Of a DNA stretch of 64,000 bases, positions 25,714 through 31,228 are shown piece after piece (within the stretch, counting starts at the first letter, position 1; every line of letters begins with the position of its first letter). Under the pieces are notes generated by a model. The model was not told the DNA's origin, searched no databases, and saw only the letters and a program-made list of their open reading frames with translations. The DNA comes from Verrucomicrobiia bacterium. Its GTDB lineage: Bacteria > Verrucomicrobiota > Verrucomicrobiia > Verrucomicrobiales > DEV007. Where the stretch lies: contig JAUIAH010000002.1 of assembly GCA_030425385.1 (NCBI GenBank), forward strand, positions 124,001-188,000. The letters run 5' to 3'. Made by a program: the position numbers and the translations under genes.

Positions 25714-26178
25714 TCAAAGTCCCTGCGTGTCTCGCAGAATGGCGTCGGTGAGGTCCAGCCCTTCTCTTTGAGATCCTGACAGGTTTGCCGCGATGAGGTC
25801 CGTGCCTACACACTTGGCACCTGAAAGATTGGCGTCTATCAACGTCGCCCCCGATAAATCGGCACCGCTCAAGTCCGCTTCGCTGAGATTCACACGATCC
25901 AACGTCACGCCCCCGAGATCCGCGCCGGTGAAGTCGACTTGACTCAAATTCGCCCCGGTAAACGTCGCGCCGCTGAAATCGGCTCCGGAGAAATTGACCC
26001 CCACCAAGATGGCGTCAGAGAAATTTGTGCCAATGAAATGGGCTTTGGACAGATTCGCCCCTGAGAAATCCTGCCCGCTCAAATCCATCCCTGTCTTCTC
26101 TAACATCGCCCCCTCTTGACCCCCAGTAGAAAGCCAGTTCGCATGCGCATCCAGTTCGTCCGAAGTGATCGTAGCCAT
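25714..26178 (-). CDS. Pentapeptide-repeat protein
   Basis: A 154-residue protein with a short helical cap (SDELDAHANWLSTGG). It is followed by about twenty A(D/N)LxG-type pentapeptides from about residue 32 to the end, for example SGANLSKAHF and SEADLSGADLSGATL. These fold as a right-handed quadrilateral beta-helix. Some relatives mimic DNA and protect gyrase, but most have no known role and nothing here points to one. The first gene of a probable two-gene operon, it has a promoter ending seven bases before the ATG. Confidence 0.92.
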   Translation of the reverse strand: MATITSDELDAHANWLSTGGQEGAMLEKTGMDLSGQDFSGANLSKAHFIGTNFSDAILVGVNFSGADFSGATFTGANLSQVDFTGADLGGVTLDRVNLSEADLSGADLSGATLIDANLSGAKCVGTDLIAANLSGSQREGLDLTDAILRDTQGL

Positions 26179-26238: not shown

Positions 26239-28089
26239 TTAGAGAATGATACTGAGCAGGAAAGCCAGCGCGAAGCCGACGATAGAGATCACCGTGGTGA
26301 CGATCGTCCAGGTTTGCAGCGTTTGTTTCTCTGTCATGCCGAAGTAGCGATTGACGATCCAGAAGCCACTATCATTCACATGTGAGAGGATCGTGGAACC
26401 TGCCGCAATGGCGATCACAACCAGGGCTTTGTGCATATCATCTAGATTGTATGTGGCCACTACTGGGGCGATGAGACTGGAGGCGGCGATCATTGACACG
26501 GTAGCGGATCCTTGAGTGACCCGCACGATGACTGCGAAGATATAGGCGAGAATGACAGGGCTGAGTTTCGAACTGGCGAGAAGATTGGCAAGGGTTTCGC
26601 CCACTCCGCTATCGCCTAGCATTTGCTTAAAGACACCACCTGCTCCCGTGACCAGAATGATGATGCCTGCAGGAGCGAGCGAGGCAGTGCTCAGCTCCAT
26701 GAGCTTCTCCCGACTCACACCGCGTCGCGTGCCGAGCAAGTAGAGGGAAATGAGCGTGGAGAGAATCAAGGCGATGATAGGATGCCCGAGAAAGATGCAA
26801 ATGTCAGTGAACGTGCCACTAGCAATACGGCCATTGTCCACCAGGAGTTCCAGGATGGTGCTAGCCAAGATCATAAGGATGGGGAGCCCGATGATGAGAA
26901 GCACCATGCCCAGGCTCGGAAGTTTCATGGCCGTGCCTTCGCGTTGATCTTCGATTCCAAGATCAGCGGGATCAGGCACGGCGATGAAATGCTTCTCGGC
27001 TAGTCGACACCCCAGCCAAGGGCCTGCAATGACGGCCGTGGGAAACCCCACGATCACTCCAAAGAGAATCACCCAGCCAAGCCCCACTTCGAGATTCTCC
27101 GCCACCAGAATGGGGCCAGGGGTTGGCGGAATGAAGGCGTGGGTCGTCGCCATGCCAGCCACTAACGGAAGACCGAAGAATAGAACGGACTTCTTGGTGT
27201 CGCGTGCCATGGCATAGATGATCGAAATGAGAATGACGAGACCGACATCGAAGAAGACTGGGATAGAAATGAGGAATCCCGTCACAACCATGGCCCACGG
27301 AGCGCGCTTCTCTCCAAAGGCCTTGATCAACGACCGAGCGAGGCTTTCCGCGCCTCCCGAAAACTCCAACACTTTCCCCAGTATGGCTCCCAGGCCAATA
27401 ATCGTCGCAATGAACCCGAGGCTGCCTCCCATGCCATCGATCACACTTTGCACCACATCCATCAAGGGCATGCCAGCCCCAATGCCGACAATGATCGCCG
27501 CTAACAAGAGCGCGATGAAGGCCTGCATTTTAAAGACGAGAATAAGGACCAAGAGAAAGATGATGGAAACGAGGAGCACCGTCACGAGCCACGCCACTGA
27601 GGGCCCGTCCAGGGCATCCAATTTGTGGAGCTGGGACTTGTTCTTCTTCAGCCAAGCGATGCGCGCAGCTTCATCGAAGCGTTGGGACTCGGAGCGGAGC
27701 TTGATTTGAAAGCGATCCCCCACAAGCACATTGGTCTCGTTGCCGAGATTCGTGGCCGAGTTTCCAGGATACCCGCCGATACTCACGTCTCCCCTGCGGA
27801 AGGCTTCCAGTTTGGTGGGATCCCCTGCCAAGTCGGTGATCACGACGGCTCCCAAGAGGACGCCATCCTCGTCTTTCAAAGCGGCCTCTAGATAGCCATC
27901 CTCGGCGATGCCTATCGCATCGATCTGAGGCCAACTCGACACGAGGGCATCGAGCGTCTCCTTGGGAACGAGGCCTGAGGGCGCATCCGCTTCCTCGGCT
28001 GATCGTCCCACGCCGAGCATGAGACCTAACAAGATCGCGATAAGAAGAGGGATTTCCGTTAGTTTCCGATGACAAGTTGGCAATACCAT
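26239..28089 (-). CDS. GntP-family sugar-acid permease with an exported N-terminal domain
   Basis: A 616-residue protein. Residues from about 165 onward are a normal GntP (gluconate:H+ symporter family) transporter with many TM helices; hallmarks include [15 protein letters not shown] and HVNDSGFW. The first approx. 165 residues are an addition: a hydrophobic signal-like helix ([14 protein letters not shown]), then a soluble domain of about 130 residues that ordinary 440-residue GntP permeases lack. It is divergent from a fumarylacetoacetate-hydrolase-family gene 48 bp away, so the pair probably handles a sugar acid. The substrate is unknown. Confidence 0.9.
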
Positions 28090-28100
28090 GGTGCTTGGGG

Positions 28101-28129
28101 TTGCGTTGCGGGGGCTGGCTTACTAGAAT
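28101..28129 (+). promoter_or_regulatory. Sigma70-like promoter of the FAA-hydrolase gene
   Basis: TTGCGT, a 17-base spacer and TAGAAT are followed by eight bases, mostly C, and the ATG at 28138. It lies in the 48-bp gap to the divergent GntP gene. Confidence 0.5.
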
Positions 28130-28137
28130 CCCCCCCT

Positions 28138-28974
28138 ATGATCAAGGTCTATCGTCGTCAGGACAGCGTGGTGATTGTTTCAGGTGGTCAATGCTACAGC
28201 CACGAGGGCTTCTCATTTGACCGTCTCTTTCAAGCAGAAGATCCCGCTGCCTTTCTCCAAGAAGCCATCCGCGAAGCCACCCCGACCGCGGAGGCCGCAG
28301 CCATGCAAGACACGTGGGAAGCGCCTCTGGAATCTCAGGAAGTGTGGGCCTCTGGGGTCACCTATTACCGCAGTCGTGAAGCACGCATGGAGGAGTCGGA
28401 GCAATCTGGCGGCGATGTCTTCTACGACAAGGTTTACGAAGCCGAACGCCCTGAACTCTTCTTCAAAGCCACCTCTTCACGCGCGCGCGGGCACGGGGCG
28501 GAGGTGTGCATTCGCAAGGATTCGAGTTGGGATGTGCCAGAGCCTGAGCTGACGATTGCGATCAATGCCCATGGGAAGGTGTTCGGCTACACCGTCGGCA
28601 ATGACATGAGTTCGCGATCGATCGAAGGCGAGAATCCGCTCTATCTGCCACAAGCGAAAGTCTATCGGGGATCATGTGCGATGGGGCCCGCCCTGTGCGT
28701 GGGCGACCCGCTTCCCAAGGAAAGCAAGATCACTCTGGAGATCACCCGTGACGGAAACCCTGCCTTCACGGGTGAGACAGCCCTCACACAACTCAAACGG
28801 ACGCTCGACGAACTCGCTTCCTACCTCTTCCGCGACAACGAATTTCCCTTTGGCGCATGGCTCATGACGGGCACGGGAGTGGTTCCCTCCACCGATTTCA
28901 CTCTCCAAGTTGGTGATGTCGTCAGGATCTCTATCGAAGGCTTGGGGACATTGGAGAACCGGGTCGGAAGTTAG
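28138..28974 (+). CDS. Fumarylacetoacetate-hydrolase-family protein
   Basis: A 278-residue member of the FAH superfamily, whose members hydrolyse or decarboxylate 2-keto acids with a divalent metal. Family features are [44 protein letters not shown] (metal-binding acidic cluster), the downstream [11 protein letters not shown] and [21 protein letters not shown] near the C-terminus. The ATG at 28138 fits both the family N-terminus and a promoter ending at 28129. Next to a GntP permease, it may act on a 3-deoxy-2-keto sugar acid, which is an inference from context. Confidence 0.92.
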
Positions 28975-29089: not shown

Positions 29090-31228
29090 TCAGTCCGCCA
29101 GCCAGCGAAGCACTTCTTCGCCATCGAACGTCTCTCGTATCACCAGTGCCGGATTGACTGAGGTGGCGGTTTCCCAACCGCTCTTATCATCGACCACGAA
29201 CAAGGGCTGTTCTCCGCAGCGTGCGGCCAGGGCGCTGACATCGCCATATTTCACTGCCCCCGGCATGAAGGCGTCGTCTTTCCAAGAGGTCACGTGATCA
29301 AATCGCCAGCCATCCAGCTTGGCCATCGCCTTGCCCAGCTTCGGGTCATCGATCTGTCCGCACGCCGCCAGGACAATCGCCCCTCCAAGGGCATCCATCC
29401 CAGCGAGATGCACCTGTTGCACGTCCCAATCAGGCGTCGTCACGATGAATCCCACCGTGGTGAGAATGTCATGCACGCGTTTGGCAAAGACCGGATAGTT
29501 GTATCCGAAAGTGTAACCGGCAAAGCGCTCATCATTGATCACAGCACCTTCCCGCGCCGCTTCACCCACTCCATGGGGATCAAGGGCGGCCACCGCATAG
29601 CCGAGTTCCACCAATGCGAGAGGGCCTTCTGCTAGATCCCCCTCCTGTGTGAGGACAGAACTTTTGCCCTCCTCACCGTGGACCCATACCACCACCTCCC
29701 CATTCCAATCATCCCCGGGATGGAGAAAGAGCGCAGCCACTTCCTCGTCGTGCCCCTCAGCCCGCAAGGTGCCTGTCATTCGCAATCCGACCGAGCCTTC
29801 CTCTTTCGCCGTCAACGTGTAGATGACTTCACCCACGTCGCCTAACCGACGTCCCAAGAGAGTGTCCCACGCCCCGCCAATGACCTCCTCGTAGGCTGAC
29901 CGGGCACCGGCATCATTGGGCAAGCGTGCCTCGATCGCAGCGATCTGTGTGACACTATCATGTTCCCACCACTTCAAGAGCGCCCCCTCATGAGCCGCGC
30001 CACGTCCACGAGGAGCCGGGTGCGTTTCCGTCCACACGGAAAGTTCATCTTCACTCAGAGGCTCAAAGTCGCGCTCCCGCACAGGCTCAGGATGGCCTAG
30101 ATTAAAGTGTTTGTTCACAAAGCCAGCCATGGCCTCCCGGGAGACCGCGTTGAAGTTATGCCCAAACTGCAGGTAGGGGAAAACTTCGACACGCCCCTCG
30201 CAGCCGTGCATCCCATACAAATGCGCCAAGTCCGGCATGCCCTTTGTCTCAATCTCCACCGTCCAATCGTCCGCTCCCGTCAAGCCTAACGGACGCGGCA
30301 GAGCGAGAGCTGCAAGGTCCACGTTGCCCGCACCGATACGGAGATAACTCGCATTCTCACAAACACATCCTCCCTGCATGCCCGTGGAAACCATGACGGC
30401 AGGAAAGAGCAAGTCAGGCCGATCATCGATGGCTCCAAGGATGAATGTCTGCGTGCCCCCGCCACTTGCACCCGTGACACCGATCCGATCCTGATCGATC
30501 TCCGGCAACGATTCGATGAAGTCGAGCGCACGAACAGAATTGAAGGTTTGGATTCCCATCATATTCTGCAGGCGCAGCTCTGCCCGCGTGCTGAAGAGTC
30601 CATCAGCAGCCATGCTGCTTTGGCGATGGTCTAACTGCACGCTGTCTGCATAGCCTACCATGTCATAATGAAAGACCACGCATCCCATCCGCGCCAACTG
30701 CACGCATCGCGCCTGTAGAGGATGCCGCCCTGAGGCAAAGCGCTCGGCACCACTCTCGATTTCTTTCTTCCCATTCGCTTCCCCATGATCGTGAAAGCGG
30801 CCATGCGTCCAGTGCCCATGAGGGCTGAGGATACCTGGAACCTTCTGCCCCCGCTTAAGAGACTTTGGCCGATACAGACTGCCACTCACATAGTGCCCAG
30901 GAAAGGATTCGAAATAGACTTTGGAGACGGTGTAATCTTCCCGAGTCACCGTGCCGTGCTCCACCACATTCAAGTTTCCTTTCGTCGGCATGGGCCACAA
31001 ACCCGTCGCCACCAGCACCTGCCGCCGCAGCGATACCGCCCGCGTTTCCCAGGCCTCTCGCGTCGCTACTTTATGAAAAGGGTGATCGTCATTGAGCGTC
31101 CGCAGATCTCCCAACCGATGATCCTGAGGGCGTTCACCAGCCGCATAGGCATGGGGAAAGGTCTGTGCGGAAAGAGGCATGACACCGGGCAACAACGTTA
31201 GCAGAAAGATAGGTAGCAGACGTATCAT
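29090..31228 (-). CDS. Exported two-domain alpha/beta hydrolase (acetyl-xylan-esterase-like)
   Basis: A 712-residue protein with a signal peptide (IRLLPIFLLTLLPGVMPLSAQ). The first domain (about residues 60-400) is a complete alpha/beta hydrolase with nucleophile elbow GASGGG and an HG loop (SPHGHW), like bacterial acetyl-xylan-esterase-type enzymes. A second hydrolase-like half (about 450-712) has VWVHGEEG and DPHGVGEA, but the expected nucleophile serine position reads GMDALGG, with Asp. The substrate is unknown; an esterified polysaccharide is plausible. The promoter ends five bases before the ATG. Confidence 0.88.
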   Translation of the reverse strand: MIRLLPIFLLTLLPGVMPLSAQTFPHAYAAGERPQDHRLGDLRTLNDDHPFHKVATREAWETRAVSLRRQVLVATGLWPMPTKGNLNVVEHGTVTREDYTVSKVYFESFPGHYVSGSLYRPKSLKRGQKVPGILSPHGHWTHGRFHDHGEANGKKEIESGAERFASGRHPLQARCVQLARMGCVVFHYDMVGYADSVQLDHRQSSMAADGLFSTRAELRLQNMMGIQTFNSVRALDFIESLPEIDQDRIGVTGASGGGTQTFILGAIDDRPDLLFPAVMVSTGMQGGCVCENASYLRIGAGNVDLAALALPRPLGLTGADDWTVEIETKGMPDLAHLYGMHGCEGRVEVFPYLQFGHNFNAVSREAMAGFVNKHFNLGHPEPVRERDFEPLSEDELSVWTETHPAPRGRGAAHEGALLKWWEHDSVTQIAAIEARLPNDAGARSAYEEVIGGAWDTLLGRRLGDVGEVIYTLTAKEEGSVGLRMTGTLRAEGHDEEVAALFLHPGDDWNGEVVVWVHGEEGKSSVLTQEGDLAEGPLALVELGYAVAALDPHGVGEAAREGAVINDERFAGYTFGYNYPVFAKRVHDILTTVGFIVTTPDWDVQQVHLAGMDALGGAIVLAACGQIDDPKLGKAMAKLDGWRFDHVTSWKDDAFMPGAVKYGDVSALAARCGEQPLFVVDDKSGWETATSVNPALVIRETFDGEEVLRWLAD

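Follow-up and report, generated by a model that had tools for sequence, protein, structure and literature searches.

A GntP-family permease joined to an exported domain in a verrucomicrobial genus

GntP permeases are normally bare membrane proteins. In the stretch of verrucomicrobial DNA analyzed here (64,000 nucleotides, hereafter the window), a gene of this family begins with a long segment that precedes the transporter in the same reading frame and looks as if it were exported. The locus thus raises the question of whether this front part is protein at all and, if so, what an exported domain could add to a GntP transporter.

The front part of the fusion gene

The gene lies on the minus strand (26239 to 28089) and forms an uninterrupted open reading frame of 616 amino acids, with its ATG at 28089 and its stop at 26239. 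The Pfam model GntP_permease (PF02447) covers only residues 168 to 615 (E = 7.6e-145; 483.4 bits against a cut-off of 22.5; model positions 2 to 440 of 440), and TIGR00791 also scores over its cut-off (437.6 against 292.75 bits). By these curated cut-offs, the predicted protein is a member of the GntP permease family, with a permease part at residues 168 to 616 (26242 to 27588, minus strand). When residues 1 to 166 were searched alone, no Pfam match appeared at E 1. The hydropathy profile has a signal-like helix at residues 10 to 28, the core of a segment resembling a signal peptide (residues 1 to 30; 28000 to 28089, minus strand), and no further helix before the first of the permease, TM1 (residues 168 to 186; 27532 to 27588, minus strand). 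The stretch between them (residues 29 to 167) carries 15 K/R and 23 D/E and contains what appears to be a soluble exported domain of about 125 residues (residues 40 to 163; 27601 to 27972, minus strand). A first-pass annotation of this DNA had described a typical GntP transporter behind extra residues, with a signal-like helix and a soluble part ahead of it, and the frame, the family models and the hydropathy profile bear this out.

A second species of the genus (genome G003) has the same arrangement, with 75% identity across residues 19 to 615. Between the two species, the domain (residues 39 to 160, 57% identity) shows a pN of 0.296 and a pS of 0.733 (dN 0.38, dS 2.8) and the permease part (82% identity) a pN of 0.108 and a pS of 0.657, ratios that are rough since synonymous change is near saturation. 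Judged by these substitution patterns, both parts are under purifying selection, and the front part is real protein. The first-pass annotation had named an internal start near residue 160, with the upstream part untranslated, as the finding that would undo the fusion. GTG and TTG codons are indeed available at positions 157 to 171, and plain GntP relatives begin close to TM1. We nevertheless regard such a start as very improbable: upstream, the codon-position pattern and pN/pS reveal constraint on the protein, homologs of the domain exist as separate genes, and none of the candidates (TTG157, GTG165, GTG169 and GTG171) has an SD-like motif. Inspected by eye, the ATG at codon 1 likewise has no such motif in the 30 bases upstream. 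The next ATG after the candidates is codon 188, adjoining TM1.

The early loops of the family suggest on which side of the membrane the domain would lie. Across 30 GntP rows, the TM1-TM2 loop has a mean of 1.1 K/R in 4 residues, and the TM2-TM3 loop has 0.6 K/R and 1.2 D/E in 13 residues; under the positive-inside rule, these charges place the N-terminus of TM1 outside. The domain would therefore be periplasmic, as the first-pass annotation had proposed and in agreement with a signal-led part ahead of TM1, although the alternation of loop charges fails from the fourth loop on, with 2.83 K/R in a loop expected outside and then 0.03 in one expected inside. We presume that this failure reflects re-entrant parts and our crude helix list.

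Searches of the domain against Pfam, NCBIfam, PADLOC and PDB sequences returned no convincing family. One match, to the CBS domain protein 6zz9 (hmmsearch E = 0.0041), spans profile positions 7 to 68 of 123, half the domain, and was not believed. AlphaFold2 run on four sequences gave a model of residues 31 to 165 with a pLDDT of 80.2 and a pTM of 0.77; the form of the domain encoded in genome G002, described below, gave 70.2 and 0.67. Both models consist of a helix, three strands, a low-confidence middle, more strands and two end helices. Foldseek comparisons of the domain model were not significant (best E = 0.09 among PDB structures and 0.023 among viral models). In VIA, the best row was 1vr8 (TM1622, which we take to have a Mog1/PsbP-like fold), with Z 6.4 and an rmsd of 3.7 over 100 aligned residues, followed by the C-terminal domain of RseB at Z 5.9 and then by many unrelated folds; the G002-form model drew other rows (best Z 5.3), and 1vr8 was absent among its 50. 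As all VIA rows fall below the Z 8 line and differ between the two models, we claim no fold name for the domain. Together with the homologs described next, the searches show that the domain belongs to an undescribed small family of predicted envelope proteins.

Distribution of the domain and its forms

A search with the full-length fusion protein found matches in 76 of 95 related genomes, yet the domain is joined to GntP only in the window genome (G000) and G003. Among the 29 other GntP loci (L002 to L030), only L002, that of G003, has a domain match; the remaining 28 (L003 to L030) have none, with L021 and L024 cut in front by a contig end. Whether the fusion is conserved among verrucomicrobial GntP proteins had been posed as a check, and it is not general: two of the four species of a single genus have it. 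Searched on its own at E < 1e-3 in 74 genomes of the bacterial family, the domain was found in eight: the four of the genus (G000 to G003) and, with single-sequence E-values, G023 (8.9e-10), G011 (1.9e-9), G109 (7.3e-8) and G006 (5.7e-5). Six weaker rows (E 0.02 to 0.04) were dropped before counting. A profile built from the eight rows, whose own profile E-values follow by construction because they built it, retrieved the same genomes, at least 8 of 386, across the order and at least 1 of 387, the window's own, in a sample of the phylum. In both cases scoring was limited to at most 11 candidates per genome, so distant copies could have escaped. The alignment of the eight rows, in which that of G001 begins after an in-frame stop, has 15 invariant residues, three of them arginines (R126, R132 and R143 of P0001). 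In viral contigs, no relative was confirmed for either the domain or the window GntP. A literature search of mostly open papers found nothing on point about a periplasmic domain on GntP, the topology of the GntP family, verrucomicrobial gluconate permeases or transporter fusions with gluconate.

Within the genus, the domain gene occupies one locus in two forms. In all four genomes, it is divergent from the same FAA-family gene, with a gap between the start codons of 48 bp in G000, 46 bp in G003 and 46 bp in G002. It runs on into GntP in G000 and G003. In G002, by contrast, it stops after a single membrane helix, giving a 219-residue protein without GntP, and G001 has a similar single-anchor form in which an in-frame stop interrupts the domain near its start. 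This stop, at about 8058 to 8060 of L069, could be decay, an assembly error or a real variant. Over 140 codons, the G001 and G002 copies differ by a dN of 0.071 against a dS of 1.01, so selection has acted on the single-anchor form as well. Elsewhere in G002 there is a GntP of the close type (C40, 56% identical), and the best GntP in G001 is 37% identical. The anchor of this form could derive from TM1 of GntP, but its alignment score of 23 is reached by 8 of 150 other helices. Two sister species thus have the domain, but not the importer, at the corresponding genomic position, and the domain is a separable part.

The four copies outside the genus, which come from further genera of its bacterial family, are free exported proteins of 145 to 200 residues. 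A lipobox has the pattern [LVI]-[ASTVI]-[GAS]-C at the end of the signal helix. Read by eye, the signals end in LVSC in G011 and G023 and in the irregular SASC in G006 and LDSC in G109, making two of the four lipoprotein-like; within the genus, a lipobox-like L-S-G-C is present in the signal helix of the G003 fusion, and the window protein and the G002 form have no such cysteine (by eye). Directly after the free gene in all four genomes comes a gene for a protein of 300 to 318 residues (L047:1887-2834, L048:8876-9832, L049:9048-9950 and L050:3700-4656), which occurs in exactly these 4 of the 74 family genomes searched and not in the window's genus; the G011 copy, when scanned, had no significant Pfam match. 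The upstream contexts are not uniform. A glucuronoyl esterase gene lies directly before the free domain gene on the same strand in G011 and G023 (L048:9874-11750 and L047:11-1833; Pfam GCE, 1e-34 and 2.3e-32, and for G011 also PDB 6ehn, 3.1e-114), an adjacency that may link the domain functionally to sugar acids. In G006, the domain gene stands behind ftsZ- and ftsA-like cell-division genes (L050:3700-9081), and the G109 copy has upstream of it genes for a sulfatase and for a small exported protein that matches no Pfam family. Because the four outgroup copies have no C-terminal anchor, loss of GntP from a fusion would be the simpler course for the two forms in the genus.

The neighboring FAA gene and the GntP lineages

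The FAA-family gene (28138 to 28974, plus strand; 278 amino acids) is separated from the fusion gene by a divergent intergenic region of 48 bp (28090 to 28137). By eye, this region contains TTGCGT (28101 to 28106) and TAGAAT (28124 to 28129), 17 bp apart and promoter-like for the FAA gene, and a stretch similar to this TTGCGT/TAGaaT-like region is readable in G001, G002 and G003 too. On the other side, directly downstream of the fusion gene, is a gene for a pentapeptide-repeat protein of 154 residues (25714 to 26178, minus strand). Farther along (29090 to 31228, minus strand), the window encodes a 712-residue protein whose first half matches acetyl-xylan-esterase-like hydrolases.

YjhF is, we assume, a GntP protein. 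In one study, D-xylonate uptake in Escherichia coli is assumed to proceed via yagG and yjhF (PMC13279387). The best PDB match of the FAA protein is 2q18 (E = 1.9e-60; next match, 2.6e-20). This Sulfolobus solfataricus enzyme (2q18/3bqb) and the FAA protein are alike, although the alignment takes in only residues 62 to 273 of 278 and leaves the first 61 outside. The metal-site acids and the Glu/Lys dyad of SsDPDHT are residues 114, 143, 145, 164 and 182 (PMC9795676). All five are identical in the FAA protein by phmmer alignment, with the numbering counted by hand; residue 164 is Glu in the text of that paper and Asp in the sequence. Based on the PDB match, these residues and gene linkage, we predict that the FAA gene encodes a probable 2-keto-3-deoxy-D-pentonate dehydratase, acting on 2-keto-3-deoxy-D-arabinonate (equivalent to 2-keto-3-deoxy-D-xylonate).

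The linkage comes from relatives. The FAA gene is present in 55 of the 74 family genomes, and in 24 of these 55 it adjoins a YjhG/YagF D-xylonate dehydratase gene. A GntP gene adjoins it in 12 of the 46 that were also in the 95-genome search; in G043 there is only a GntP fragment at a contig end, and in G018 the FAA gene lies beside both the YjhG/YagF dehydratase and GntP. The gene after it in G017 encodes an aldehyde dehydrogenase (best PDB match 1eyy, 4.7e-126), whose best NCBIfam model, 2,5-dioxovalerate dehydrogenase, scores 106 bits, far below the cut-off of 750, and the gene after GntP there is hydroxypyruvate-isomerase-like (112 bits, with a cut-off of 353). Relatives of the G017 dehydrogenase, 45 to 53% identical, are encoded elsewhere in all four genomes of the window's genus. 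The sugar-acid pathway that the first-pass annotation had suspected next door is thus supported by the structural match, the five residues and the D-xylonate dehydratase linkage. If the FAA protein is a pentonate dehydratase, the permease probably imports a pentonate, for example D-xylonate or D-arabinonate, as its gene neighborhood suggests. None of the four genus genomes has a YjhG D-xylonate dehydratase over the cut-off (matches of 236 to 247 bits against 808); hence, the pentonate in question may be one that a different dehydratase processes.

The two fused permeases group as a clade with support of 100/99 in a tree of 33 GntP rows, apart from the plain GntPs linked to FAA genes, with several long branches that make the exact place of the fused clade unsure. 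The FAA-linked plain GntPs fall at two other places, which puts FAA genes beside three GntP lineages. Either this neighborhood is old and its GntPs have been exchanged, or it has arisen several times.

Other GntP proteins also depart from the plain form. PF02447 was found at E 1e-60 in 34 of 288 phylum genomes. Of 43 GntP rows, four have frames of 560 residues or more (G000, G404, G147 and G592), a threshold that leaves out G510 (554), G582 (520) and shorter ones. G404 (899) and G147 (663) were rejected as fusions, since their frames overrun a gene on the opposite strand and look like artifacts; G592 (566) is no N-terminal fusion, as its insert sits between TM2 and TM3. Soluble inserts between TM2 and TM3 are seen at L023 (about 75 residues) and L121 (about 115) and in part at L021, L022 and L024. 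By the same topology argument, these inserts would be periplasmic and would represent a second way of adding a soluble part. Alignments to the GntP paralogs of G054, G055, G057, G022, G015, G008, G049, G024, G044, G034, G040 and G014 break near query positions 412 to 433, which suggests an insert there.

What the domain may contribute

Under our best reading, to which we give about an even chance, an envelope domain has been reused and tethered to a pentonate permease as an accessory. The gene product would be an inner-membrane importer of the GntP type, probably for a pentonate, whose first helix, judging by the loop charges, crosses from outside to inside, with the Sec-exported domain standing ahead of it. 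Tethered in the periplasm, the domain would contact the outer face of the permease or a partner in the envelope and would tune the stability, assembly or activity of the permease rather than catch substrate, this contact and tuning being the weakest step of the proposal.

The first-pass annotation had suggested instead a substrate-capture or sensing domain on a family that normally has none. Its premise stands, in that the domain is predicted to be exported and the other 28 GntP loci, two of them cut in front, give no domain match; the function fares less well. A capturing or sensing domain would bind sugar acids and then pass them to the permease or gate it, and the exported placement, the sugar-acid neighborhood in the genus and the three arginines invariant in eight of eight rows, which could hold a carboxylate, are all consistent with this. 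The free genes of G011 and G023, each immediately preceded by a same-strand glucuronoyl esterase gene, keep it a live rival. Yet the same arginines are invariant in G006 and G109, where no sugar-acid gene adjoins, neither Foldseek nor VIA gave a significant match to a binding-protein fold, and G001 and G002 hold the domain without a permease at the locus. Capture or sensing is therefore unlikely in our view. We prefer an accessory because two species have the domain without the permease and because two of the four free copies lie away from sugar-acid genes. The same two species also weigh against an accessory, in that the domain cannot serve GntP alone; one of them, G001, has the in-frame stop.

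These sister species could also be cited for a chance recombination in the genus that left the domain as a passenger, adding nothing to transport and doing its old envelope job from a new anchor. The 15 invariant residues are common to the free family members, and the domain evolves faster than the permease, as a passenger might. However, the fusion is held in two species with both parts constrained, and one may argue that a junction without a function would easily be lost from a membrane protein. We consider a passenger doubtful, if deserving of some weight, and retain the tethered accessory as the preferred reading. A broader interpretation, which we offer only tentatively, is that this undescribed family consists of small periplasmic modules acting as an interchangeable partner in sugar-acid handling. 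In one genus the module would be a free lipoprotein encoded just behind a glucuronoyl esterase; in two species it would sit on a single anchor, with a pentonate dehydratase as its neighbor; and in two more it would be built into a secondary sugar-acid permease, binding substrate or regulating the permease from outside. If so, the four sister species, with their one shared locus, would offer a natural experiment on the contribution of an accessory to GntP. In any case, with a fused member and with sister species whose locus has no permease, one can ask directly what a GntP transporter gains from a periplasmic accessory, and the finding connects a GntP permease and an FAH-type pentonate dehydratase with the use of pentonates in these Verrucomicrobiales.

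The free domain proteins of G011, G023, G006 and G109 are homologous to the domain of the fusion (single-sequence E-values of 8.9e-10 to 5.7e-5) but, unlike the fusion, have no transporter, begin with an exported or lipoprotein-like N-terminus and are followed by the 300- to 318-residue protein. Relative to the GntP family of gluconate:H+ symporters (PF02447, TIGR00791), the permease body is complete, and what the fusion adds is a signal-like helix and an exported domain before TM1.
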